A stretch of 64,000 bases of DNA from Capsulimonas corticalis (GTDB lineage Bacteria > Armatimonadota > Armatimonadia > Armatimonadales > Capsulimonadaceae): positions 1-64,000 of the forward strand of contig NZ_AP025739.1 in the NCBI RefSeq assembly GCF_003574315.2, written 5' to 3'. This document shows, piece after piece, positions 1 to 60,580 of the stretch. Within the stretch, counting starts at the first letter, position 1; every line of letters begins with the position of its first letter. Both the position numbers and the translations under genes were made by a program. The notes below the pieces were generated by a model that worked only from the letters and a program-made list of their open reading frames with translations, did no database searches and was not told the DNA's origin.

Positions 1-1410
1 ATCTTCGCGGGAGCGGCGCCGGAGTATGTCGACGCCGTTCTTTCGACGGAGCCTGCGTCGCTCAGCGAACGCGCCGCGCGCGCTCCGTGGGACCGGAGCC
101 GCATCGCGGCGGCGATCCACCAGGCGATCCCGCGCGGGCCGCAGATCGTCGATCCCGAATCGGGACACGCCCTTTCGGATATCTTTTGCCAGATGCGTAT
201 CGACGGCGACCGTCACATCCTGGTCGCGCTCAACATCAACCCCCAGCGGGAATTCGAACGCGCCGTCGTGCGGATGCCCGGACATGGCGCCGTGGAGGAG
301 TGGGACTGCCGAACGGGAGAGCGCCGCGCGATCGCCACACAGCCCGGATGCTGCTTCGAGGAGTTTGAAACAACCTTCGCCGTCTCCGGAGAGCGCGCTT
401 ATGTACTGACGCCCACGCGCGATCCCAGCGTTCTGGAAGCTCCCAAGACGGTGGAGGCGGGCCGCCAGATCTGCGACGGCCCGTTTGAATACGAATTGGC
501 CGAGGACAACGTTTGCGTCCTGGACTTCGCGCGCTTCCGGCTCGACGAAGGCGAGTGGAGCGAGCGCGCCGAGATCCTCAAGATCGATCAGGCGGTGCGC
601 GCGGCGCTGGAGATTTCCGAGCGCGGCGGCGAGATGGTGCAGCCCTGGTTTCACGCCAAATTTCACCCGGCGCCGCCGGTGCGCGCCCGCCTCGCCCTGG
701 AGTATCTCTTCACCCTGGAGAGCGCCCCGGACAAGCCCGTCACCCTGGCGATCGAGCGGCCCAAACAGTGGCGGATCTCGCTGAACGGCCAGGCGATCTC
801 TTCCGACGCCGATGGCTGGTGGGTGGACGCCGCCTTCGAAAAGCTCGCCCTGCCCGCCGCCGCCCTTCAAACCGGGGAGAACATCTTGACCCTGGAGATC
901 CCGTTCCACGCCGCCATCAACCTGGAAGCGCTTTATCTGCTTGGCGACTTTGGGGTACGCCAGCAGGACAGCCATGTCTTGCTGACGCGCCGCCCAAAGC
1001 GCCTGCACGTGGGCGACATCACCGAGCAGGGCTTCCCCTTCTATGGAGGATCGCTCACCTACGCCGTCCCGCTGCCGCCCCTCGCTGAAGGCCGGCGCGT
1101 GTTTGTGGAGACGTCCGGATTTGAAGCGGCCTGCATCAAAGTCCGGCGCGCCGGCGGCGCGGACGCAATGATCGCGTTCCCGCCCTACCGCGCGGAAGCG
1201 ACCGGGACCGGGGACCGGCTGGAGCTGGAAGTGGTCCTCACCCGACGCAACACCTTTGGCCCGCTCCATCAGCTCCCGCTGCGCAGCCACGCCTACGGTC
1301 CCGGCAACTTCACCACCGGAGGCGCGCACTTCACCAACGACTATATGCTCTATCCGGCGGGCCTCTTGGAGGCGCCGGTCATCTCGTGGGCAGATACGCC
1401 GCAAGAATGA
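1..1410 (+). CDS. C-terminal part of a glycoside-hydrolase-like protein (5' end outside window)
   Basis: The frame is open from base 1 to the TGA at 1410, about 469 codons, so the visible part is only the C-terminus. It reads as beta-rich domains. Residues around 230-300 (YLFTLESAPDKPVTLAIERP, then a WRISLNGQ segment) look like a galactose-binding-like domain of the kind found in GH2 and rhamnosidase-type enzymes. The tail carries a TRRNTFGPLHQLP segment that I associate with the end of large bacterial glycosidases of uncertain family. No catalytic site is visible here. It converges with the GH2 gene at 1522-3903. The glycosidase class is inference. Confidence 0.7.
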   Translation: MFAGAAPEYVDAVLSTEPASLSERAARAPWDRSRIAAAIHQAIPRGPQIVDPESGHALSDIFCQMRIDGDRHILVALNINPQREFERAVVRMPGHGAVEEWDCRTGERRAIATQPGCCFEEFETTFAVSGERAYVLTPTRDPSVLEAPKTVEAGRQICDGPFEYELAEDNVCVLDFARFRLDEGEWSERAEILKIDQAVRAALEISERGGEMVQPWFHAKFHPAPPVRARLALEYLFTLESAPDKPVTLAIERPKQWRISLNGQAISSDADGWWVDAAFEKLALPAAALQTGENILTLEIPFHAAINLEALYLLGDFGVRQQDSHVLLTRRPKRLHVGDITEQGFPFYGGSLTYAVPLPPLAEGRRVFVETSGFEAACIKVRRAGGADAMIAFPPYRAEATGTGDRLELEVVLTRRNTFGPLHQLPLRSHAYGPGNFTTGGAHFTNDYMLYPAGLLEAPVISWADTPQE

Positions 1411-29495: not shown

Positions 29496-29678
29496 ATGAG
29501 CACGGTGCAAAAGCTGACGGAGCGGGGGCTGGTGAAGCCGCCGAAGTTTCTTCCGAACAATATTCAGTATGAGACGATCATGGGCAGCGTGGCCTATGGT
29601 GTGTCGAATGACCTCTCCAATCATTCAAATGTGTATATACGAAGCCAAGAAGAATTACTCTCACTCAGCCTCCCATGA
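29496..29678 (+). pseudogene. Truncated inverted copy of the nucleotidyltransferase 5' end
   Basis: The first 102 bases match the start of the gene at 30642 (minus strand) at 98 positions, including the GSVAYG motif. Similarity fades by about 29620 and the frame then runs into unrelated sequence, ending at 60 codons. AAGGAG and a TATAAT (29470-29475) precede it, unlike the upstream region of the full gene. The catalytic Asp pair is lost, so it is a gene remnant. Confidence 0.85.
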
Positions 29679-29742: not shown

Positions 29743-30642
29743 TCAATAGCCTGCCTGCGCAATGATGGCTCGGATGCGCCGTAATGCATCGGCGGCGGCG
29801 TCCACATTCACCACGCAGTCGCTCAGGCTGCCGTAGTGATGCTCCAGGCAGTCCAGAAGAAGCTGCTTGATCTTCCCTTCGTCCGGCGCGGGAGGCAGCT
29901 TGCTGTTGGTGTACAGCGTCTCCAGATCCCGCTCCTTGCGTTCAAAGTGCGAAAGGACACCCGCCTGAGTCCACTCGCCTCGCCGGATCGATTTGAGCTG
30001 CTCGCGGTTGCGCTGCAAGTCGATGTCGCCTTCCATCAGAATCTGCTCCACCTCATCGAGCAGACGGACGACATGGTAGGCGTATTTGACATCGTACCCA
30101 AACTCCTCGACCAGCGCCTTCCGCTTGCCGACCGGCGCGTCCTTGCTGTTCATTTTATGGATCTGGCTGTAGGCGTATCCTTTGAACTTATGCCAGGCGC
30201 CTTTGTGCAGAAACAGCCGCCGATTCTCGCGCACCATGTTTCCGATCTGCGTACTGTGCAGCACACAGGTTCGGGGCGTGAAGAGCGAATCGATCATGTT
30301 CGGATTGTTTTCCATGCAGAGCTGGAAGTATTTGACGATGTTGTAAATCGTCAGGTCATATGTCCTCCCCTTGCCTGCCCCTGCGCTCTTGTCGAGCACA
30401 TGATGAATCTGCCACTGCTCGAACCTCTCGATTTGCTGACCGAACCCGGGGATCTCTCCGCTCAGATGAGGAAAGAGAGTCTCCTTCTCGGGGATACAGA
30501 ATCCATAAATGTCGGAATCGGACAAATCATTGGAAGTTCCGTAGGCCACGCTGCCCATAATCGTCTCATACTGAATATTGTGCGGAAGAAACTTCGGAGG
30601 CTTCACCAGCCCCCGCTCCGTCAGCTTTTGCACCGTGCTCAT
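29743..30642 (-). CDS. Predicted nucleotidyltransferase (RlaP/YcgL type)
   Basis: 299 aa. The polymerase-beta-superfamily signature is present: MGSVAYGTSNDLSDSDIYGF, with G-S and the D-x-D metal-binding pair near residues 42-44. The rest is helical (KAYSQIHKMNSK-like segment, KYAYHVVRLLDEVEQIL) as in the RNA-ligase-associated predicted nucleotidyltransferases. The chemical reaction is unknown. It has its own promoter and lies between the tRNA and the endolysin gene, so it could belong to either host or phage. Confidence 0.8.
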   Translation of the reverse strand: MSTVQKLTERGLVKPPKFLPHNIQYETIMGSVAYGTSNDLSDSDIYGFCIPEKETLFPHLSGEIPGFGQQIERFEQWQIHHVLDKSAGAGKGRTYDLTIYNIVKYFQLCMENNPNMIDSLFTPRTCVLHSTQIGNMVRENRRLFLHKGAWHKFKGYAYSQIHKMNSKDAPVGKRKALVEEFGYDVKYAYHVVRLLDEVEQILMEGDIDLQRNREQLKSIRRGEWTQAGVLSHFERKERDLETLYTNSKLPPAPDEGKIKQLLLDCLEHHYGSLSDCVVNVDAAADALRRIRAIIAQAGY

Positions 30643-32764: not shown

Positions 32765-34081
32765 CTAAAGCGTCGTCAGCGCCGAGGTGTAAGTCCAGAC
32801 GCGCGTCGCGTCCGTCGTGCCGATCTGAGGCGTGAATACCTCAGTCGCATAAAGCGTCGAGCCGATCGAGCCGTCCGTCGTCACGTTGTAGTAGCGTGTC
32901 GTCACAACGCCGGTGAGCAGGTTTTTGTTGGACCGGTAAGCGTGATGATCGGTGCTCGCCGCCAGCGCCTCTTCCTGCTTGCGTGTGAGCCCTCCCGCCT
33001 CCAGTACATCGGCGTCGATTGCGGCGACGATCTGCGCCGCCGTGGGCGGCGTCACCGGAAGACGTGCGAGGAGAGTTGTCGTGCCGGGTGTATCCGCTGA
33101 GCTCCCGCCGTATCCCGTGGGCGGCGTAGTCGGCAGGGTTACCGGTACCGCGCGCTGCTGGTAGTCGGTCGGTGGCGGAAGCCACCAGGCCGGCGCGCTG
33201 GCGTACTGAGCGGCCGTCAGCGGGACCGTGTAGGCGCTGGCCGCAAGCGGGACGCCGGTCGAGATCGTCGCGCCTGCCCACTGGGTTGCATTAGCAGGGA
33301 TCGGCAACGTCTGTCCTGTGTTGTTGAACGACTGAGTGCCGGCGAGAGCGACCGGTGTTGTGACGCTTGAAGCGACTATCGACGGCTGCGTGTTGCTGCT
33401 GAGGATGACCTTTCCGTCCGTGCCCAGATTGGTCACGAGGTTGGTCAAGCCTTTGCCGTACGGACTCAGGCTGAATGTATCGCCCGCCGTCGGCGCATTC
33501 GGGAGCGCCGCCGCCAGCGTCAGCGTGCTGCCCGTCGCCGACCAGGACAGAACATGCGACGCCTTGCCTGCGTTGGGTCCAGTGAGCCACGTCACTTCAT
33601 CGCCGCTGTAAATATCCCCAGCCGTAGTTGACAGATTCGTCGGGATTACCGTCGTTGTGGGCGACGCGCCAACGACCCCAGTGGCAAGGACAATCGCCTT
33701 ATTGGTGCTTGCCGCCGTCGTGTTCGCCGCCACGAGTGTTTGCGGATCGGCCGAGCAGAAAATCACGGGCGGCGTAGAGGCGAAGGTGGAGCCGGCGAGT
33801 ACCGGCGTCAGCGTGATCCACGCCTCGCCCTTCGCGGCGGCGTCGTAGACCACACCGCTGTTACTGCCGGCAAAGTGCGCGACGGCGCCAGGTGAGGCAA
33901 TGGCGTTTCCATCCATGTCCGTAACTGACGCCACGGAGATCGACGTCGGGGTTCGCCTGGTTCCGGTGTCGTCTATGATGGTAGGGCCAGGGTATAGCAC
34001 AGGCGCGCCCAGCGCGATGGCGCTCACGCAGAGCGAGCACAGGACCGACAGAGACGTGACGATACGTTTCATGGATCGCAT
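32765..34081 (-). CDS. Fibre-region phage protein with signal peptide
   Basis: 438 aa from ATG 34081 (ATG 34072 also possible). It begins with a clear signal peptide (MKRIVTSLSVLCSLCVSAIALGA), unexpected for a virion protein. The body is Thr/Ala/Ser-rich with beta-like repeats. The segment QIVAAIDADVLEAGGLTRKQEEALAA and the tail TTRYYNVTTDGSIG resemble phage tail-fibre-associated sequences. Its stop is 9 nt before the BppU-like ATG. Function unknown; an exported adhesin or fibre is possible. Confidence 0.65.
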   Translation of the reverse strand: MRSMKRIVTSLSVLCSLCVSAIALGAPVLYPGPTIIDDTGTRRTPTSISVASVTDMDGNAIASPGAVAHFAGSNSGVVYDAAAKGEAWITLTPVLAGSTFASTPPVIFCSADPQTLVAANTTAASTNKAIVLATGVVGASPTTTVIPTNLSTTAGDIYSGDEVTWLTGPNAGKASHVLSWSATGSTLTLAAALPNAPTAGDTFSLSPYGKGLTNLVTNLGTDGKVILSSNTQPSIVASSVTTPVALAGTQSFNNTGQTLPIPANATQWAGATISTGVPLAASAYTVPLTAAQYASAPAWWLPPPTDYQQRAVPVTLPTTPPTGYGGSSADTPGTTTLLARLPVTPPTAAQIVAAIDADVLEAGGLTRKQEEALAASTDHHAYRSNKNLLTGVVTTRYYNVTTDGSIGSTLYATEVFTPQIGTTDATRVWTYTSALTTL

Positions 34082-34083
34082 AA

Positions 34084-36618
34084 TTAACGGCCCCTCCGAG
34101 GCTGAAAGCCGAGCTTGATATTCACCGTTCCGGTGGCGACGGGATAAAGGACATTGGCGATATTGTTCGCCCACACCATCGAGACATAGACATCGCCGGG
34201 AATCGTGTTTCCCGTCCCAAGCGGGTGAACGTAGTCCGAACCGATCACCCCGTAATTGTCCATCGTCATCTGGTACATCAATCCTGACGGATCATTATTG
34301 AAGACCTTGCCGGGGTTTGTTGTCGCCTCCGCCGTGACGATGTTGGCGATGGCTCCTTGGTAGCCCACGAGCTTCGCCAGGGAAGCGTCCACATGGTTCG
34401 TTCCCTGGCTCATAATGTAGGGAGGGCACTGCAAGAGCACCTTTGTGTAGCCCGACGTAATGAGACTATCGACAATCGCCTGAAGCTGCGTCTGGTACGT
34501 GCTGGGGCTGAAGTTCCCAAACGATATGGAACTGTCGTTGATCCCGAGCTCGATGAAGGCAATGGGATATGTCCCAGGCGGCGCCGCCGTCTTCGCCGCC
34601 GGCAGGAGAGATCCTGTCGGCGCCCAGTCCAGCGTATTTTTGCCCGCGACGCCTTGATTGCTCGTCGTGACCCGCGCGACGCCGGCGAGACGGGCGCGCA
34701 GCTGGGACACCAGCAAATCACCGGATGCGATGACCGCAGTGGCCGCGTTCGGCGCATTCTGCACCAGCCAGGAATCGCCGATCAGGATCAAGCTGACCAG
34801 GGGAAGCGGCTCGCCGGCGATGATCGGGTAGTAGACGACCGAAGACGATTGGTCCGTCATAGACAGCTGATAATAATATTGCGTCCCATTCACGGCCGTA
34901 TTATCGACCAGCGTCGGCGGGACGGTCGTCGCGGTCACTCCCGTGGTGGCGCTGCCGACATTGGCCCAGGCGGGACTGAGGCCCGCCGGATCCGTGGAGC
35001 GGCGCCACTGCGCGGTATAGTTTGGCGTTCCGCCCGTCGTATACGACGAGGATCCCGAGAACGAGATCGTGATCGTATTGCTGCCCGGCGTCATGACGGC
35101 CGACGTGGTGACGCCAGGCGTCAGCGGAGACGAAGAGGCGACGTAGGAGATCGTGCTGGGATTCGTGAGCGTCCCGTCGTTGGTCACGCTGATTGTGCCC
35201 GTGCCGGCCGCCGTCGGCGTAAAGGTGAACGTCGCCGACGGCGCGCCAGTCGAGAGCGTCACCGTCGTCGGCGTAAACGATCCCGCAAGCCCGGAAACCG
35301 CCGGCGTCACGATCCGACTGGACTGCGTGGAGCCAATGGGAGAGAGCGCGACCGTGAAGTTCGTGGACGCGGCATTCACGGCGCCAGAGGTTGGTCCCGT
35401 CAGCGTCAGCGCCGTCGCCGGTCCGGCCGAAACGGTAAGCGTCTGGGTTGCTCCCGATGGCCCAGTAACGGTGATCGTGGATCCACCCGCGAGGCTGCCG
35501 GGATCGACCGTGAATGTCGCCGCCGTCGTGCTCGTGGCGTTCTGAGAGGCGATGGTGGCGCCGGCAGAAACGCTGAACTGCGTCGATGTTCCCACTGCGA
35601 ATGCGGTCCCTGTCCCCGTCACGGTGACGCTCTGCGCGCCGCCGCTGGCTGTCAGTGTGGTGGGAGAGAGCGCGAACGAAGGGGCAGTCGGCGTGATCGT
35701 GAAGGAAACGCCGTCCGTCGTGTCCGTGAGTGTGATTGTCCCGGTCGGCAGGGTGCCATCATTTACCGGAAGTGTGATTGACCCATCGCCCGAATTATAA
35801 GTCGGCGAGCCAATCGACACACCGGTGCCACCGCTCGTGTATGCGAATGCCGTCGAGCCGCTGAACGTCAGGCTAGTAGGGACGAGCGAATAATTCTGTG
35901 TCGTCCCGTTGGCGTAGCCGGGCGCTGAGACAGGCGTGGCGGCGATACTGGCGACGGCGACTTCCTGCGTGGCGAAGTCATCCACATAAGCATTACTGGA
36001 GCCGCCGGTCTGCCGAATGCCGCTGTACCCGGCCGCCGTGATCGTACTGCTTGTGACCGTTCCGTCCCAGCCCGAAGGCGTCGCCGCCGCGCCGTAGCAG
36101 CGCACGGAGATATTATTTCCGACAACCTGCGCTTCCAAGTAATACCAGGTGCCGCTCACCAGCGTTCCGGCCTGCGCCGTCCCTCCCGTCAGCGTCAGCG
36201 TCGTGGGAGTGTTCGAGACATAATTCTTGACGGAAATGGCGGACGCGCCGGCGGCGGGCGGGAAAACGACGATGCCTGTACTCGTCCCGTTGAAACGCAG
36301 GACGAGGCATCCGTAAATGGTTGACGCCGCCTTGAAATGGAACTTGACCGTGGGGTTGGTGTAAGTTTGAGTGTTATACCAAGTCCAGGCGCCCGATGTT
36401 GGGAGCGACAGCGCCTGCGCGCCGGAGTAGAACGCGCCGTTGCCGACCCGGTCGCCGCTTGCGGTACCCGTTCCGGCGGTGCCGGTCGTGCTCCACCCGG
36501 TTGGAAGGAAGTTGAGTGTGTCGCTGTCGAAGTTGTCGCTGTAGGGAGAGGCCAGCGCCGCCAGCGTTAGCAGCAGAAATAGAAATATGACCGCGATCGA
36601 TGTCCGAAATCGGCGCAT
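34084..36618 (-). CDS. Phage-encoded multidomain protein with signal peptide and C-terminal SGNH hydrolase
   Basis: 844 aa from ATG 36618. A strong hydrophobic signal segment (TSIAVIFLFLLLTLAALA) leads into a laminin-G/concanavalin-like region (~25-210). Several Ig-like repeats follow (LSPTTLTASGGAQSVTVTGTG and similar), then a fibronectin-like segment. The last ~210 residues have SGNH blocks: LILIGDSWLVQN (Ser), FIELGINDSS (Asn) and SDYVHPLG (His). Such esterases in phages deacylate host surface glycans. The export signal suggests it could instead be secreted by the lysogen. Its stop is 2 nt before the next ATG. Confidence 0.8.
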   Translation of the reverse strand: MRRFRTSIAVIFLFLLLTLAALASPYSDNFDSDTLNFLPTGWSTTGTAGTGTASGDRVGNGAFYSGAQALSLPTSGAWTWYNTQTYTNPTVKFHFKAASTIYGCLVLRFNGTSTGIVVFPPAAGASAISVKNYVSNTPTTLTLTGGTAQAGTLVSGTWYYLEAQVVGNNISVRCYGAAATPSGWDGTVTSSTITAAGYSGIRQTGGSSNAYVDDFATQEVAVASIAATPVSAPGYANGTTQNYSLVPTSLTFSGSTAFAYTSGGTGVSIGSPTYNSGDGSITLPVNDGTLPTGTITLTDTTDGVSFTITPTAPSFALSPTTLTASGGAQSVTVTGTGTAFAVGTSTQFSVSAGATIASQNATSTTAATFTVDPGSLAGGSTITVTGPSGATQTLTVSAGPATALTLTGPTSGAVNAASTNFTVALSPIGSTQSSRIVTPAVSGLAGSFTPTTVTLSTGAPSATFTFTPTAAGTGTISVTNDGTLTNPSTISYVASSSPLTPGVTTSAVMTPGSNTITISFSGSSSYTTGGTPNYTAQWRRSTDPAGLSPAWANVGSATTGVTATTVPPTLVDNTAVNGTQYYYQLSMTDQSSSVVYYPIIAGEPLPLVSLILIGDSWLVQNAPNAATAVIASGDLLVSQLRARLAGVARVTTSNQGVAGKNTLDWAPTGSLLPAAKTAAPPGTYPIAFIELGINDSSISFGNFSPSTYQTQLQAIVDSLITSGYTKVLLQCPPYIMSQGTNHVDASLAKLVGYQGAIANIVTAEATTNPGKVFNNDPSGLMYQMTMDNYGVIGSDYVHPLGTGNTIPGDVYVSMVWANNIANVLYPVATGTVNIKLGFQPRRGR

Positions 36619-36639
36619 AGTGAATAGCTCCAGGCAAAC

Positions 36640-36667
36640 AAAAAGCCGCCTCACGATTGAGGACGGC
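36640..36667 (-). terminator. Terminator upstream of the SGNH fibre gene
   Basis: GCCGCCTCA / TGAGGACGGC stem (36645-36667, one mismatch, 4-nt loop) followed on the minus strand by TTTTT. Confidence 0.75.
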
Positions 36668-48612: not shown

Positions 48613-49398
48613 TTATGGCTTGTATACGATTACGTTAAACAACGAGCGGTCAAGCCGCAACACATGGTAACCGTGATTTGTTTGATCTCGAACACGAATA
48701 AGTACAGCTTTGTCGTCCTCATCAATCAGCTGCACCCAGTTAGTAGTCAATGATTGAGCAGATGTCATTGGCAAAGCTGATGCTAAGATTGTTGATCCTT
48801 CATGTGTACAGATTAATTGTACTTCTGGCAGGGCGCCTCCTCCATATGCGGCAGGAATTAGCGGGAATATGGTTCTGCTGTACAAAACTATTAAACCAGC
48901 TCCGACTGTAAATACATGAAGATAACTAACGAACCAGTGAAATGTATTATTTGATCTTGCGTTATCAATCCAAACGAAAACAGTCGGGATCGCGATCACA
49001 AACGCCAGCATCTTTAACATATACATATGCCAGGTTAATTTAGACGCCGTAGTAAAAAAGCTAAGCAGAATCAATTCTAGTACTAACCACAATAACCACG
49101 AATAAATAATCTTAAGAATAACCTTGGGTATCGCCTTATCCGACATAGCCTTTTTAAGCTTGTCTTCAAAATAACAACTTTGCGCCACATAACTACCGAG
49201 CATTATTATCATTGCAGTAATACCCACTGCAATATATCGTGGTTTTAGCAGAACGAAATCTACGGCGCCTAATGAACTAAGGTACACACTGCAAACGAAA
49301 AATCCTAGCCCGTATACCAACCCTAAAACGCTTGCAGCCAATGCCGCAATGTTCGAAGCCATTGAGAGAATGTGATTGCTGTTGTCTTTGAATGTCAA
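48613..49398 (-). CDS. Low-GC five-helix membrane protein (moron)
   Basis: 261 aa. TTG start supported by AGGAG at 7 nt. Hydrophobic segments at about 18-43, 54-77, 93-116, 126-145 and 155-183, then an ~80-residue soluble tail (VQLICTHEGSTILASALP to RSLFNVIVYKP). The DNA is clearly more A+T-rich than all flanking genes. With its own terminator and leader it interrupts the tight tail operon, the hallmark of a moron. A superinfection-exclusion or defence function is a hypothesis; no family recognised. Confidence 0.8.
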   Translation of the reverse strand: MTFKDNSNHILSMASNIAALAASVLGLVYGLGFFVCSVYLSSLGAVDFVLLKPRYIAVGITAMIIMLGSYVAQSCYFEDKLKKAMSDKAIPKVILKIIYSWLLWLVLELILLSFFTTASKLTWHMYMLKMLAFVIAIPTVFVWIDNARSNNTFHWFVSYLHVFTVGAGLIVLYSRTIFPLIPAAYGGGALPEVQLICTHEGSTILASALPMTSAQSLTTNWVQLIDEDDKAVLIRVRDQTNHGYHVLRLDRSLFNVIVYKP

Positions 49399-51908: not shown

Positions 51909-52898
51909 TTACAGGGCGACGCTCGCAGGCACCTTCAGCTTGCCGTGGCAATATTCGGGGCCGTGGTCAATGCCGAGCTGACCGTAAAGCTGCGTCTGAT
52001 CCGCCGATCCCTGCTTGAAGAGTTGCTCTTCGAACAAGATGCCTTTGTTCGGAACCGGGAGACCGACGATGCCGGCGACGCCCAGGTTGCAGATGGCGAA
52101 ATACTGCGCTGGCATATCCGGCTCCAGCACCAGATTGATGGAGCCGAAGCGGGTCAGGATCTTGCGGACCTTGATGCCGGCGTACTCGCTCTCCGGCTGG
52201 AGGTAAATCGTGCCCTGCGCCTCGTAAGCGGCGCAGATGTTCGAGTACTCCGTCGTGCCGGCCAGCAGCGTCCATGTCTCATCCACGCCGTAACCGTTCG
52301 CGGTAATGACGGTCTGCATCAGGAGATTGACATAACCCCGGTACATCGTGGTGGTGACGCCTGTGTCCGCGCTCTTATCGATGCTGTTGGTCGTGATCGC
52401 CGTGAGCAAGCCTCGCGTCTTCAGCGCGGTGCTTGCCGGGTCAGCGGGATTGACGAAGGTCCCGTTGAGCATCGAATAGTTCGCGTCCTGCGCGACTTTT
52501 TGCAGGGTCGTCATGACCTGGAATTCCGACGAACGTGGATTCTGCACTCCGCCCTGCGCGGCCCCTTGCGGGATCGGGACGATGCCGGCGACGGTATGAT
52601 CCGACTGCGCCAGGTAAGTGATCGTGATCGCCTCCTGGAAGATCTGGATCACATTTGTGGATTGGGTTAGCGACCGATACGCCGGTGTGGGCGCATTGGC
52701 GCCTTCGAGGATTGCCGGCTGCGCGGGAGCGGGGATATTCCAGAAGGCGCCGATCGGGAATTCCTTCGCGGTGGTTTCCTGAACGCCGCCCTGGATGCCG
52801 CCCAGCAGACGAAGCAGCGCGTTAGGCCGCTTGTTCATTTGGAAGAGTTCCCCCAGGTAGGGAACGACGTTATTGATGGTTACAATGCCGTTGGGCAT
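51909..52898 (-). CDS. Major capsid protein (SU10/DUF5309 type)
   Basis: 329 aa. It reads as the SU10-like/DUF5309 capsid family with the HK97 fold: VVPYLGELFQMNKRPNALLRLLGG, EFPIGAFWNIPAPAQPAILEGA, STNVIQIFQEAITITYLAQSDH and ILTRFGSINLVLEPDMPAQYFAI. It lies directly after a scaffold-like gene and before the connectors. Confidence 0.88.
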   Translation of the reverse strand: MPNGIVTINNVVPYLGELFQMNKRPNALLRLLGGIQGGVQETTAKEFPIGAFWNIPAPAQPAILEGANAPTPAYRSLTQSTNVIQIFQEAITITYLAQSDHTVAGIVPIPQGAAQGGVQNPRSSEFQVMTTLQKVAQDANYSMLNGTFVNPADPASTALKTRGLLTAITTNSIDKSADTGVTTTMYRGYVNLLMQTVITANGYGVDETWTLLAGTTEYSNICAAYEAQGTIYLQPESEYAGIKVRKILTRFGSINLVLEPDMPAQYFAICNLGVAGIVGLPVPNKGILFEEQLFKQGSADQTQLYGQLGIDHGPEYCHGKLKVPASVAL

Positions 52899-55026: not shown

Positions 55027-56562
55027 TTACACGCCGCTCTTTCCCGCCGCGCCCTTGAGGCCGGCGATCTCCTGCTCGGTCTGCTGGAGGCTGGCGTCCG
55101 CCGCCGTCGGCGTGGCGGCCGGTGGTGGTGGCTCCGTCTTCAGCTCCTCGATCAGCGCCGTCACGTCTTCGATGCCTTCCGCCTGCGCGACGCGCTCGAT
55201 CGCGCGCTCGTGGGTGATGTAGCCGGCGATCTCCTGCTCTTGCGTGCGTCCCGTCAGCGCTGTCAGTTCGTCCTGCGACATCTGGAAATAAGGCGGCCAG
55301 GCCAGGGTCACATCATAGCTGTCTTCGTCGTCTTCACGGACGCCCAGATCGACGCCGACATTCTGCAAGCCGCGCGCCACCAGAGCGAGAAACTCACAAA
55401 GACCATCCTCACCCCAGCTCTTGCGCTTCTCTTCCGTCAGTTCGATCTGCGGCAGGTACAGCTGCGCGAGCACCGCGTTCGTCAGGTTTCCCTTGTTGCT
55501 GAACTCGGACTGATCGACTTCCACCGACGACGCGGCGGCGAGGATCTGCTTCTTCAGATCCTTCGCATACTCCATCATCGCGGGGCGCAGGCCGTTGCCG
55601 GTCGGCGGGAACTCTACTTTGCCCTGCTTCTCACCCTCAGCGCTGTGCGCGTCGATCGGCTGGCCGGGCTGGAGCGGTTTGTCGATATCGTCCTCGTCCA
55701 GGTCAAGATCAATGAAGATCGGGTTGCTTTCGGCGTCGAACTGGTTGCTCTTGTCCATCAGGTGATAGGTCAAGTTGATCCGGTCGAGCACGCGGTACAG
55801 ATCCCAGAGATCACCGGCGCCGTACAGGTCGTCCGTCTCCACGTTTTTGATGTGCGTAAGCGGAATGACGCCGAAGGGATTGGCGGCGCGACTGCTGATC
55901 TTCCAGCCCTCGTACGTGTCCGGATCCGTACGGTTGTAGGACATGTAGAGGCGAGTGCTGCCAAGGCTCGTGTTCAGGCTCTCCTGAGGCAATGGAAAGT
56001 AATGGATCTCCTCGTCGTCGGTCCACTCCTCGCGGTACCACATCGTCTTTCCAGCCACTGCGTCGAAGTAGCTGTACTGGATTCTCGCCATCAGCAGATC
56101 GGCGCAGTTGTGGGGATCGTAGTACAGGCGCACCTCATCCACCAGGGAGAGCGACTGAATCGAGAGCGGGATGCGCGCGGTCTCGTCGTACGAGAACTTC
56201 AGCGCGATTCCGCCGTCGCAGCCGCCCTGCCGCGCCATCGCCACAAGGCGCGCGCCCATCTTGTTCTTGCGCCACATCTTGCGCAGGAACTCCTCCAGAT
56301 CGGGATTCTCCGCGCAATGGATCTGAAGCGGCTGCCCAAACAGCCACTTGGCGCCGCGCGCGATGATGCTCTTGGCGAGCGGCATGCAGCGCGGAAGCGG
56401 ACCTCGATCCTCCGTCTTCCACTCCTTGAAATGGAACAGCGGATACGGGTTCAGCACATCGTAGGCGTGGGCCTCGGCGGCTTTGTCTTGCAGCCATCCG
56501 AGCCCCACGGGCAGGCTTCGCGTATTGATCAGCGCGGCGGCTTGTTCGGCTCTTGTTGTCAT
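55027..56562 (-). CDS. Portal protein (SPP1 gp6-like)
   Basis: 511 aa from ATG 56562, overlapping the terminase stop as ATGA. FHFKEWKTEDRGPLPRCMPLAKSII, GQPLQIHCAENPDLEEFLRKMW, VRLYYDPHNCADLLMARIQYSY and FGVIPLTHIKNVETDDLYGAGDLWDLYRVLDRINL match the gp6-type portal family. The end is a polar helix (SLQQTEQEIAGLKGAAGKSG). Forms the dodecameric DNA entry ring. Confidence 0.88.
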   Translation of the reverse strand: MTTRAEQAAALINTRSLPVGLGWLQDKAAEAHAYDVLNPYPLFHFKEWKTEDRGPLPRCMPLAKSIIARGAKWLFGQPLQIHCAENPDLEEFLRKMWRKNKMGARLVAMARQGGCDGGIALKFSYDETARIPLSIQSLSLVDEVRLYYDPHNCADLLMARIQYSYFDAVAGKTMWYREEWTDDEEIHYFPLPQESLNTSLGSTRLYMSYNRTDPDTYEGWKISSRAANPFGVIPLTHIKNVETDDLYGAGDLWDLYRVLDRINLTYHLMDKSNQFDAESNPIFIDLDLDEDDIDKPLQPGQPIDAHSAEGEKQGKVEFPPTGNGLRPAMMEYAKDLKKQILAAASSVEVDQSEFSNKGNLTNAVLAQLYLPQIELTEEKRKSWGEDGLCEFLALVARGLQNVGVDLGVREDDEDSYDVTLAWPPYFQMSQDELTALTGRTQEQEIAGYITHERAIERVAQAEGIEDVTALIEELKTEPPPPAATPTAADASLQQTEQEIAGLKGAAGKSGV

Positions 56563-58256
56563 ACTGTTCCGCCTCGTCTGCCACGCCGGCTTTTCTTCGT
56601 CCCGAGCGTTTCGAGGAACTTCCGGAGTGCGTTCACGAAGACGTCGACAATGTCGTCGTTCTTCGCCTTCGGGAACTTCGTAATCTGCGCGAGAAGGTCG
56701 CGCACCCATTCAAAGCAACCAGGATAGATGTTGAGATCGGGCAGATGGACACGGCCGCCCTCGGCGAACGGCGAGACGCTTTTCGCGCGGCTCTCCTTGT
56801 CGCCTGTGCCGGCGACAGCAATGCCGATCAGCGCCAGTTTCGAGCCGTCTTCCGCCTTCGTTCGGTCTTCGTCGGTGTGTCGCTTGACGTACTGCATCAG
56901 GACCGTGCCGCTGCCGACGTCCTCAACATAGTCGCCGCGATACTTGTCGCCGTAGAGCCGACGATAATAATAGGCTTGCGCGATCAGGAAGTTGACGAGA
57001 TCCGGCGTCTCCCATCGGCCATGCGCCATATTGAGAATGTACAGATCGCCGTCGGCGCCCTTCCCGGCGGTGATGCAGGCGCTTTCGTCGTTCGCCTCTT
57101 TGGCCTTGAGCGCTGTATCCCAGACGGTCCAGACTTCGACGAGCTCGGGCAGGCGGCGGTATCGGTTGCGCTCGAACCACGCCTCTTTGAAGATCGATCC
57201 GCCCTTTGCGCTGGGGCGCTGCTGGTACTGACCGTCATAGCCCATCGTGCCCAGGCGCCGCAGCTCGGCGGCGAGCACCTCGGGCGGGAAACGGGACGGG
57301 AATAATAGTTCGCCAGCCTGGACGCGCGGATCCCGCCATCCAAGGGGGTTGACGGCGCGTTTACAGCTGGCGCACTCACAAGCGGGCTTGACCTCGTACT
57401 CCATCGGGAGCACGAGGTGAAACCATTCGCTGATACTGAGGACGTGACCGGTCCAGTCGTCTTCGTGCAGGCGCTGCTGGATGCCGATCCGTACGGAAGT
57501 GCGCAGGTCGTTGACGCGGTTGCCCGCGCCATTATCCCACCAGGTATTGACGGCTTCGCGCTCGGCGTCGCTCTCAATGTCGGCGGCGTCGTTAGCGTCG
57601 TCGACGAAGAGCGCGTCGGCGCGGTCGCCGGTGATCTTCGCCTTGGCGCCGATCGCGAGGCGCGAGCCGCCGGCGGTGTTCTTAAAGAGGGTCTTCGCGT
57701 CCTGATCGGCCGCGAGGCGCCATGTGGGCTGGAAGGTCTCGCGGTACCAGTCGGAGCGGATCAGCTCGCGGCAGAGCAGCGAGTCGCGGGTGGAAACGCG
57801 CGGGTTGCCGCTGATAAAGATCGAACGCCAGGCCGGGCAGATCGTCCACATCCACGCGGGAGCGCAGACGGAGACCAGACGAGACTTCGCGGTCCCCGGC
57901 GGGACGTTGACGATCAGATCCTTGATACGCTGGACGGGACGTTCTTCGACGGCCAGGCCGCGCCTTGCGGCCATCTTCCACTGCTGGACGGCCCACCAGT
58001 CGAGCAGAGCCGCCTCAACGTGCTCGGCCATCGCGTCGATGTGCCAGTTGTCGTCGAGCGGCGTCGCGGCTTCGAGGACCGGCCAGCTCTCGCGGAAGAA
58101 CTGCGCAAGCCGCATCGGGATCTGATCGGCCATCTGCGCGCGGCGGAAGGCCTGGACCGCGAGGCTAGGCTCCTTTTCTGGCGGGGAGGTCGATCCGAAC
58201 GTCGGCGAGCCGTTTGTCAGCAACTGCGATAAATTCGGCCCGCAGAGCGTCGTCAT
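56559..58256 (-). CDS. Terminase large subunit
   Basis: 565 aa from ATG 58256; ATG 58133 (MADQIPMRL) would avoid the overlap with the small-subunit gene. ATPase: Walker A IVNVPPGTAKSRL (~116-128), Walker B ADALFVDDAND. Nuclease domain: VEVWTVWDTALKAK with Asp, and PKAKNDDIVDVFVNAL near the end. Packages DNA into the prohead through the portal. Confidence 0.93.
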   Translation of the reverse strand: MTTLCGPNLSQLLTNGSPTFGSTSPPEKEPSLAVQAFRRAQMADQIPMRLAQFFRESWPVLEAATPLDDNWHIDAMAEHVEAALLDWWAVQQWKMAARRGLAVEERPVQRIKDLIVNVPPGTAKSRLVSVCAPAWMWTICPAWRSIFISGNPRVSTRDSLLCRELIRSDWYRETFQPTWRLAADQDAKTLFKNTAGGSRLAIGAKAKITGDRADALFVDDANDAADIESDAEREAVNTWWDNGAGNRVNDLRTSVRIGIQQRLHEDDWTGHVLSISEWFHLVLPMEYEVKPACECASCKRAVNPLGWRDPRVQAGELLFPSRFPPEVLAAELRRLGTMGYDGQYQQRPSAKGGSIFKEAWFERNRYRRLPELVEVWTVWDTALKAKEANDESACITAGKGADGDLYILNMAHGRWETPDLVNFLIAQAYYYRRLYGDKYRGDYVEDVGSGTVLMQYVKRHTDEDRTKAEDGSKLALIGIAVAGTGDKESRAKSVSPFAEGGRVHLPDLNIYPGCFEWVRDLLAQITKFPKAKNDDIVDVFVNALRKFLETLGTKKSRRGRRGGTV

Positions 58257-58770
58257 GAATCGTTTCCCGAGCCGCCTGAATGACAGCAAGCCCAATACTG
58301 GTCACGTAATCATCCAGCGCCACGAGCGGAACGGCGGTCTTATCCTGGTGCTTATGGATTCGATCCACCATCGCGCCGATCTGACCGATCAGCCCGGCGG
58401 CGGACGTGATGTCGAGCAGCTGCGTGGGCTTGGAAACGCGCTCGGGGTTGTCGTAGGACTGGTGCCAGGCGATCAGCGCTTCGGTGAACGTGTCGTAGCG
58501 CTCCACCCAGTCGGTGACGAGCGCGCCGAGCATCTTGACGTGCGGGAGCAAGTCGAGCGGGTCTCCAAGCTCGTCCGCCGCGTCCAGCAGCTCCTTGAGG
58601 CGAGGCCGCTCGATCTTCGAATACAGTCCGTGCTTCACCGGCCGCCCTCCATTGCCGCCATGCTTCCAGCAGGCCCCCACCCCGACATGATCGGTGCGCT
58701 GGCCGGCGGCGTTCTCACAGGGCGCGCCGTTCTTCGTCTTGCAGGGCCGCCCGCATTTGGGATGCGCCAT
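58165..58770 (-). CDS. Probable terminase small subunit
   Basis: 201 aa. The N-terminus is Cys/His-rich (PKCGRPCKTKNGAPCENAAG, then GACWKHGGNGGRPVKHGLYS), a pattern often seen in proteins encoded just ahead of terminase large subunits. The rest is helical. Position and size support a DNA-recognising small subunit. Confidence 0.7.
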   Translation of the reverse strand: MAHPKCGRPCKTKNGAPCENAAGQRTDHVGVGACWKHGGNGGRPVKHGLYSKIERPRLKELLDAADELGDPLDLLPHVKMLGALVTDWVERYDTFTEALIAWHQSYDNPERVSKPTQLLDITSAAGLIGQIGAMVDRIHKHQDKTAVPLVALDDYVTSIGLAVIQAARETIHDDALRAEFIAVADKRLADVRIDLPARKGA

Positions 58771-59309: not shown

Positions 59310-59338
59310 ATTATTGCGTGGATCGATTTGATTGTCTA
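59310..59338 (-). promoter_or_regulatory. Candidate late promoter
   Basis: On the minus strand TAGACA (59333-59338), 17-nt spacer, AATAAT (59310-59315), upstream of the small gene and the terminase operon. The 59059-59453 stretch holds no other credible gene. Confidence 0.55.
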
Positions 59339-59404: not shown

Positions 59405-59438
59405 CCCGTTAGCCAAATTCCAGAATTTGGCTAACGGG
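59405..59438. other. 34-nt perfect hairpin beside the PEP-CTERM gene
   Basis: A 16-bp perfect stem (59405-59420 with 59423-59438) with a 2-nt loop and no U-tract, 16 nt past the PEP-CTERM stop. Either a 3'-end structure or a protein-binding palindrome. Confidence 0.75.
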
Positions 59439-59453
59439 GACATGGGAGATTGT

Positions 59454-60215
59454 CTAGAGGCTATTGGCTGCACACCGCTTGCGACTAACGCAAAGCATAG
59501 CAGATAGCCCTAGCACGCCTATGGCGAATGAGACGGGAGCGGTGGGCTCCGGAACGGTAGCAGGAATGACACGAAATTGCGTCACTAACCCATCGGGGTG
59601 TGCGTAGGTATCGAGATTGGGATCTCCCCCAACTTTTGCCACTCTGCTGAACGCTCCGGTGGTGAAGTCGAAACCTGCGTCACCAGTTGAATCGGTGTCG
59701 GCGTTGATAAATACATCGAACAATAGATTTCCCTTCGATGGATCATATAAAAATGGACTTGTCGGGAAGTTTAGATCAAAGCTTCCGTCCCCCTTCAGTG
59801 TTGTTGATAAATCGCCACTGAACACTTGGGTAAAATTGCTTCCCTTGTTTTCGTCAAAGATTGTGCTGGGAGCACTCAATGACGACGACGTATTAGAAAA
59901 ACTAAGAGTTACATGGTAGGTAGCAACATTTATCTTCGGCTGATTTCCCGCAAAGTCTGCTCTTTCAGAAGCAAAAGAGATTTGGTTAATAATTACCGGT
60001 TTATACGAAACGGAGTAAAAGGTATTGTGCGGATATATCTGTTGATACTCGCACCCAGCAGCGTAATGTGACTGTGCCCCTCCACTTGTTCCGAACGGTG
60101 CGTAGTTCCCTAGATAGGGCGCGCCGATCACCACCAACGCCGCGTGAGCCGAATTGACAGAGGCGACTCCCAGAAGGGTACATAAGACAGGAAAATGGCG
60201 ATTGAATTTTAGCAT
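59454..60215 (-). CDS. PEP-CTERM surface protein encoded in the phage region
   Basis: 253 aa. Signal peptide (MLKFNRHFPVLCTLLGVASVNSAHA). Beta-rich middle (QISFASERADFAG, YHVTLSFSNTSSSL, LLFDVFINADTDS). The C-terminus is a complete PEP-CTERM sorting signal: VPEPTAPVSF, transmembrane stretch AIGVLGLSAMLCV, then RKR. Such proteins are processed by exosortase and placed on the cell surface. The gene is A+T-richer than the phage genes and lies between early genes and the late promoter, which suggests cargo for the lysogen. Confidence 0.88.
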   Translation of the reverse strand: MLKFNRHFPVLCTLLGVASVNSAHAALVVIGAPYLGNYAPFGTSGGAQSHYAAGCEYQQIYPHNTFYSVSYKPVIINQISFASERADFAGNQPKINVATYHVTLSFSNTSSSLSAPSTIFDENKGSNFTQVFSGDLSTTLKGDGSFDLNFPTSPFLYDPSKGNLLFDVFINADTDSTGDAGFDFTTGAFSRVAKVGGDPNLDTYAHPDGLVTQFRVIPATVPEPTAPVSFAIGVLGLSAMLCVSRKRCAANSL

Positions 60216-60358: not shown

Positions 60359-60580
60359 TTACGCTATTCCACTTTTTGCCTGCTTCAAGGCGTTGTGCGC
60401 GGTGCCGGTGCTCACGCCCGCGCGGCCGGCGATCTGCTTAATCGCCGGCCACTCCCCTTTGTCCTGGTAGTAGTCCAGTGCCCACTGCGCGGCCGTACGC
60501 GTGCGTGTCCAGCGCCGCAGTGTCACCTCATCGTAAATGACTGGCTCGGCGGACTGGATTGTCCCGGGCGGCGTCTGCAT
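60359..60580 (-). CDS. Small helix-turn-helix protein
   Basis: 73 aa, AAGGAG at 7 nt. The second half (WPAIKQIAGRAGVSTGTAHNALKQAK) is a clear helix-turn-helix. A phage regulator or DNA-binding early protein is likely; it is not large enough for a typical CI repressor. Confidence 0.75.
   Translation of the reverse strand: MQTPPGTIQSAEPVIYDEVTLRRWTRTRTAAQWALDYYQDKGEWPAIKQIAGRAGVSTGTAHNALKQAKSGIA

Follow-up and report, generated by a model that had tools for sequence, protein, structure and literature searches.

A prophage of the Armatimonadota bacterium Capsulimonas corticalis carries a gene for a PEP-CTERM-type secreted protein (59454–60215). The gene is probably a horizontally acquired 'moron' of this prophage, encoding a surface protein for lysogenic conversion that would be handled by the exosortase of the host. 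The window analysed (64,000 nt) is the first 64 kb of one 7.645-Mb contig; positions beyond it are given as contig coordinates, and the main features are collected in Table 1.

Table 1. Features of the prophage and of the PEP-CTERM-type gene
Feature	Position	Strand	Remark
Left prophage end, attL core GACCT	29610–29614		Inside 5′ part of host nucleotidyltransferase gene (29496–29614)
Intact, diverged nucleotidyltransferase copy	29743–30642	-	Just inside attL
SU10-type major capsid protein	51909–52898	-	
Portal protein	55027–56709	-	
Terminase large subunit (TerL)	56559–58295	-	
Terminase small subunit (TerS)	58165–58770	-	Weak PHROG match
Promoter-like site TAGACA-17-AATAAT	59310–59338	-	Between 59454–60215 and terminase operon; consensus match only
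34-nt perfect palindrome (16-bp arms)	59405–59438		Just 3′ of the stop codon of 59454–60215
Phage-borne PEP-CTERM-type secreted protein gene	59454–60215	-	253 aa
Signal peptide (by inspection)	residues ~1–25		
Ectodomain	residues ~26–218		
Sorting signal	residues ~219–253		
HTH-like small early gene	60359–60580	-	Directly upstream; HTH match under cut-off
Integrase	contig 74808–76526		Called by PHROGs
Right prophage end, core GACCT	contig 76554–76558		Beyond window
3′ part of disrupted nucleotidyltransferase gene	contig 76554–77339		Begins right after integrase

Location of the gene within the prophage

Both ends of the prophage were mapped to a host nucleotidyltransferase gene, the two parts of which align to the two halves of the intact copy inside attL. 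An 18 bp integrase arm (CAAATGTGTATATACGAA) is found at 29626–29643, and an identical copy lies in inverted orientation on the other side of the phage, the pattern expected of a serine-integrase attP. The length of the integrase and its DNA-invertase match are consistent with the 'large serine' type. The ends, at about 29610 and 76558, delimit a prophage of about 47 kb. Their position in the two halves of the disrupted gene, together with the symmetric integrase arms, places the PEP-CTERM-type gene well inside, about 29.8 kb from attL and 16.3 kb from attR. The prophage call in IMG/VR, identical in sequence over the gene, also takes it in. The initial annotation had seen the gene as part of a phage genome, while allowing that the right end of the phage might come before it; with the nearer of the two mapped ends about 16 kb away this is excluded, and a host gene beyond the prophage is ruled out. 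The prophage splits the nucleotidyltransferase gene (29496–29678; contig 76554–77339) yet brings its own intact, diverged copy, as if replacing the lost function.

Upstream of the PEP-CTERM-type gene are a DUF3987 replication protein and small early genes, and downstream are TerS, TerL, portal and the SU10-type major capsid protein. The slot first described for it, between early genes and a late promoter, is right as to the early genes and the terminase operon that flank it, but the 'late promoter' is a consensus match (59338–59310, reverse strand) of a kind no more frequent in real DNA than in shuffled sequences. A search for a promoter of the gene's own found none that was clear. The palindrome is predicted to form an RNA hairpin of about -28 kcal/mol without a T-run, occurs once in the genome, and is possibly a processing, terminator or operator site.

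A membrane-protein-like ORF of 261 aa (48613–49398, reverse strand; GC about 0.41) lies among the tail genes, has no match in Pfam, and is a probable further cargo gene. At the tail end of the late operon, two large proteins (32765–34174 and 34084–36654, reverse strand) have signal-peptide-like stretches near their starts (MRSMKRIVTSLSVLCSLCVSAIALGA and MRRFRTSIAVIFLFLLLTLAALAS), unusual in tail proteins; that of 32765–34174 has a weak Phage_BR0599 match. The right prophage arm carries a 391-aa 'Beta protein' family gene (PF14350; contig 71762–72937, reverse strand; L011:11762–12937), possibly a defence or cargo gene.

Sorting signals and the host exosortase

The N-terminus of the protein (MLKFNRHFPVLCTLLGVASVNSAHA↓A) has, by inspection, the n-region, h-region and AHA↓A of a signal peptide, and residues 9–16 are a helix in the structure model. 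The C-terminus (ATVPEPTAPVSFAIGVLGLSAMLCVSRKRCAANSL) consists of PEP, a hydrophobic helix and a basic end, and these parts stand in the order and at the extreme C-terminal position of PEP-CTERM signals (VPEP-TAPVSFAIGVLGLSAMLCV-SRKR). Both generic models, PF07589 (14.5 bits, cut-off 20.7) and TIGR02595 (14.4 bits, cut-off 16), match the tail at the correct place but under their cut-offs, and the protein is therefore named 'PEP-CTERM-type' and filed under neither. Against NF038129 it scores 16.5 bits, short of the equivalog cut-off of 65 bits.

A profile built from 20 tails of host PEP-CTERM proteins gave the phage tail 19.6 bits, compared with 7.2 for the best of 4000 shuffles. One of the 20 owed its discovery to its likeness to the phage protein; it was dropped and the profile rebuilt. 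The phage tail then reached 16.0 bits (E 0.004), whereas the top-scoring of 10,000 tail shuffles stood at 10.1 bits and the highest-ranking other ORF of the 521 at 9.5 bits; the held-out host tail scored 12.1 bits, below the phage tail. Judged by these scores, the sorting signal is real but divergent. The full tripartite signal read from the letters alone is thus borne out, with all three parts present, the host-tail profile ahead of every shuffle and the generic models just under cut-off. The gene had also been called A+T-rich, in agreement with its GC of 0.48 (GC3 0.48). The 19 host PEP-CTERM genes measured average 0.60 ± 0.05 (GC3 0.73 ± 0.08), every one of them above the phage gene in GC, and the structural genes flanking it are at about 0.62.

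The host genome search detected one exosortase (C1:905571–906266, reverse strand), with 128.1 bits against a cut-off of 105.55 and 174.4 bits for PF09721. It has the Cys in PCSG, the Arg in NSVRIA and the His in FHDW, and looks catalytically intact. Its neighbours, named by eye, are an EpsI-like gene and WecG/TagA-like and other glycosyltransferases, and the host has at least 20 PEP-CTERM genes. The suggestion that the phage uses the host exosortase is upheld in its components, a PEP-CTERM-type substrate gene in the phage and an exosortase over cut-off in the same genome; the use itself, and the change to the cell surface that it would bring about, are predictions.

Relatives and predicted fold of the ectodomain

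The ectodomain has no homologue in the host genome, where only weak, mostly tail matches were found, ruling out a copy of a host paralogue. The protein had no match in the PHROG search or by tblastn against 50,697 phage records, and IMG/VR holds no relatives except the same prophage; membership of a known phage family is ruled out by these searches.

A search of 290 other Armatimonadota genomes found relatives of the ectodomain in four (loci L020 and L050 hold one and the same gene), a fifth match covering the tail only. They are also present in records of Nitrospirae, Planctomycetota, Acidobacteria (Bryobacterales), Verrucomicrobia and Gemmatimonadetes, and most end in PEP-CTERM and have motifs in common, such as [RE][YF]QQ[IV][YF] and PFLYDPSKGNLL. 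The conserved ectodomain positions of the family are retained in the phage protein. Two homologues (L050 and L053) are seated among ordinary chromosomal genes, and a third (L048) has, by eye, an integrase-like ORF nearby. No Pfam domain covers the ectodomain, which by sequence belongs to a bacterial secreted-protein family usually carrying PEP-CTERM.

It had been suggested that other prophages be searched for PEP-CTERM genes in the same slot, and none of six related or terminase-bearing loci has one. The closest related prophage (G025, in a genome of the same family; TerL 52%, portal 57%) lacks such a gene between TerS and the early genes, and the matching slot is likewise without one in five terminase-bearing loci of more distant kinship, including one from the C. 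corticalis genome itself. A distantly related second terminase-bearing prophage region of the C. corticalis genome (contig 6403000–6422000, L096; TerL 31%) has no PEP-CTERM gene in the part read. The gene shows the marks of phage cargo (a moron) in lying inside the mapped ends, being absent at the matching place in related phages and differing in composition from its surroundings. Its sequence and context point to a recently gained, foreign cargo gene.

The AlphaFold2 model (15 sequences; pLDDT 71, pTM 0.68) is a beta sandwich with a C-terminal helix. Foldseek of the model against the PDB gave nothing significant, and a PDB sequence search gave only insignificant matches (E ~0.1) to a 'cell-wall anchoring protein'. 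By VIA-align, the best match was a phage baseplate protein (Z 9.7), followed by the N-terminal part of carbohydrate esterases (Z 8.5–8.9) and the corresponding domain of a relative, 7tok, titled CBM domain (Z 7.1); many other beta-sandwich domains, carbohydrate-binding ones among them, gave Z 5–6. These values are moderate and may reflect just a common beta-sandwich arrangement. Among viral structure models the best match was an uncharacterised phage protein (A0A6J5NL19, E 1.2e-7). The modelled fold of the ectodomain fits a possible role in carbohydrate binding.

PEP-CTERM genes in other phages and the proposed role

IMG/VR was screened with two 23-base patterns (VPEPST.A and VPEPGT.A), keeping matches at the end of an ORF that had a hydrophobic stretch and then basic residues behind them. 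This left 22 entries, or about 18 distinct genes once identical and near-identical copies and a fragment (L174) were set aside; the same filter applied to reversed sequences left none. All ten proteins tested, nine from the screen and a second gene on the L152 contig, passed the TIGR02595 cut-off. Loci with PEP-CTERM genes over the curated cut-off are L119, L100, L152/L104, L155/L172/L184, L169, L158, L175, L156 and L137, and the L152 contig has two such genes. Among the genes next to them are, on L119, those for portal, head protease and major head protein; on L100, one for a Zot-like protein of the kind found in filamentous phages; on L152, a replication initiator; on L155 and L169, a DNA polymerase; on L175, a primase; and on L158, terminase. 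The check for hallmark genes covered part of the contigs, with L127, L151 and L154 among the rest. Contamination of viral contigs by host DNA is a standing caution where flanking hallmark genes are lacking. A tblastn search with the 26-aa consensus tail gave no matches, the query being too short and hydrophobic to be informative.

The PEP-CTERM genes of L172 and L184 are 92% identical with a dN/dS of 0.19 (0.17 for a neighbouring gene) and are under purifying selection. The polymerases of L155 and L169 are 60% identical while their PEP-CTERM proteins are alike in the tail only, suggesting that the genes were gained independently or that their ectodomains were exchanged. Tentatively, and with rather less confidence than is placed in the moron itself, PEP-CTERM surface proteins may be a recurrent cargo of tailed and filamentous phages, gained independently and kept by selection; with them, phages would adaptively borrow the exosortase and reshape the exopolysaccharide-linked surface of the cells that they infect or lysogenise.

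For the prophage of C. corticalis, the signal peptide would take the protein across the inner membrane and the C-terminal helix would hold it there. The tail would be recognised and processed by the single detected exosortase of the host, whose gene is part of an exopolysaccharide-type cluster. The envelope or matrix of the lysogen would then display the ectodomain, a beta sandwich of the jelly-roll kind seen in carbohydrate-binding modules. The likely benefit would be that surface glycans bound by other phages are masked or changed, or that adhesion or aggregation of lysogens is promoted. Expression, processing, surface location and benefit are all predicted here. Points that speak against this reading are the tail scores under both generic cut-offs, the lack of a clear promoter, the absence of close homologues from the other phages searched and the lack of significant PDB matches by Foldseek.

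An unlikely but serious competitor is that the gene rides along as a neutral passenger, a PEP-CTERM gene of host type that was acquired by accident, is not (yet) selected and has no role for phage or host. Its presence in one phage only, its absence from the nearest related prophage, a composition unlike that of the host and the lack of a convincing promoter are in keeping with this, but the 253-codon frame is intact with both sorting signals and the conserved ectodomain positions, and unrelated phages also carry PEP-CTERM genes, one of them under purifying selection. More improbable is a protein of the lytic phase or of the virion, such as a factor in adsorption or envelope weakening, in which the C-terminal helix is a mere membrane anchor and the PEP motif incidental. 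In its favour, the terminase operon directly follows the gene on the same strand, and the top structural matches take in beta domains of phage baseplates and tail tips as well as an uncharacterised phage protein. Against it, this likeness is at the level of a common fold, the homologues by sequence are secreted PEP-CTERM proteins of bacteria, with L050 and L053 in chromosomal settings, and the tail fits those of the host. That the phage ends before the gene, making it a host gene as its host-type protein family might suggest, is scarcely credible given the phage genes on both sides, the integrase, the attachment gene halves with matching inverted arms, and the IMG/VR call.

A moron for lysogenic conversion is the preferred reading, and it has parallels in known systems. 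SasX of staphylococci is a prophage-encoded sortase (LPXTG) surface protein with a known phenotype. Like SasX (named in PMC7285666), the protein described here is a prophage product that the sorting enzyme of the host is predicted to attach to the cell surface; the enzyme is an exosortase rather than a sortase, the envelope differs, the proteins are unrelated, and a phenotype is known for SasX alone. The PEP-CTERM/exosortase (EpsH) system of Gram-negative bacteria (Haft et al. 2006, as cited in PMC4886054) shares the putative signal peptide, the C-terminal PEP, helix and basic tail, an exosortase near EPS-type genes and many substrates, but here the substrate is prophage-encoded and its tail falls just under the generic cut-offs. 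PepA of Zoogloea, a floc-forming PEP-CTERM protein (Gao et al. 2018, as cited in PMC12642866; PMC9012009), is likewise small and secreted, with a plausible role in the exopolysaccharide matrix in both cases, although the phage-borne protein has no match to the PepA model NF033554 at E 0.1. The proposed benefit, cargo that alters the lysogen envelope and keeps other phages out, would resemble that of prophage superinfection-exclusion and serotype-converting proteins such as P22 SieA and gtrABC (PMC10883804), but these are membrane proteins or glycan-modifying enzymes and the present one would be a sorted surface protein.

Phage-encoded surface proteins are already known in lysogenic conversion. 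For PEP-CTERM and exosortase, the statement that no phage role is established agrees with the open-access literature searched (5.39 million papers, subscription journals lying outside it), where no description of this route was found; one viromics paper mentions in passing 13 proteins of the exosortase-related family TIGR03118 among cell-derived virus proteins (PMC11003980). If the proposed role is correct, the exosortase, common in environmental biofilm formers, would be an attachment system exploited by phages, and phage infection would be linked to the properties of flocs, biofilms and matrix. The gene at 59454–60215 also offers a specific starting point for work on the phages of Armatimonadota.
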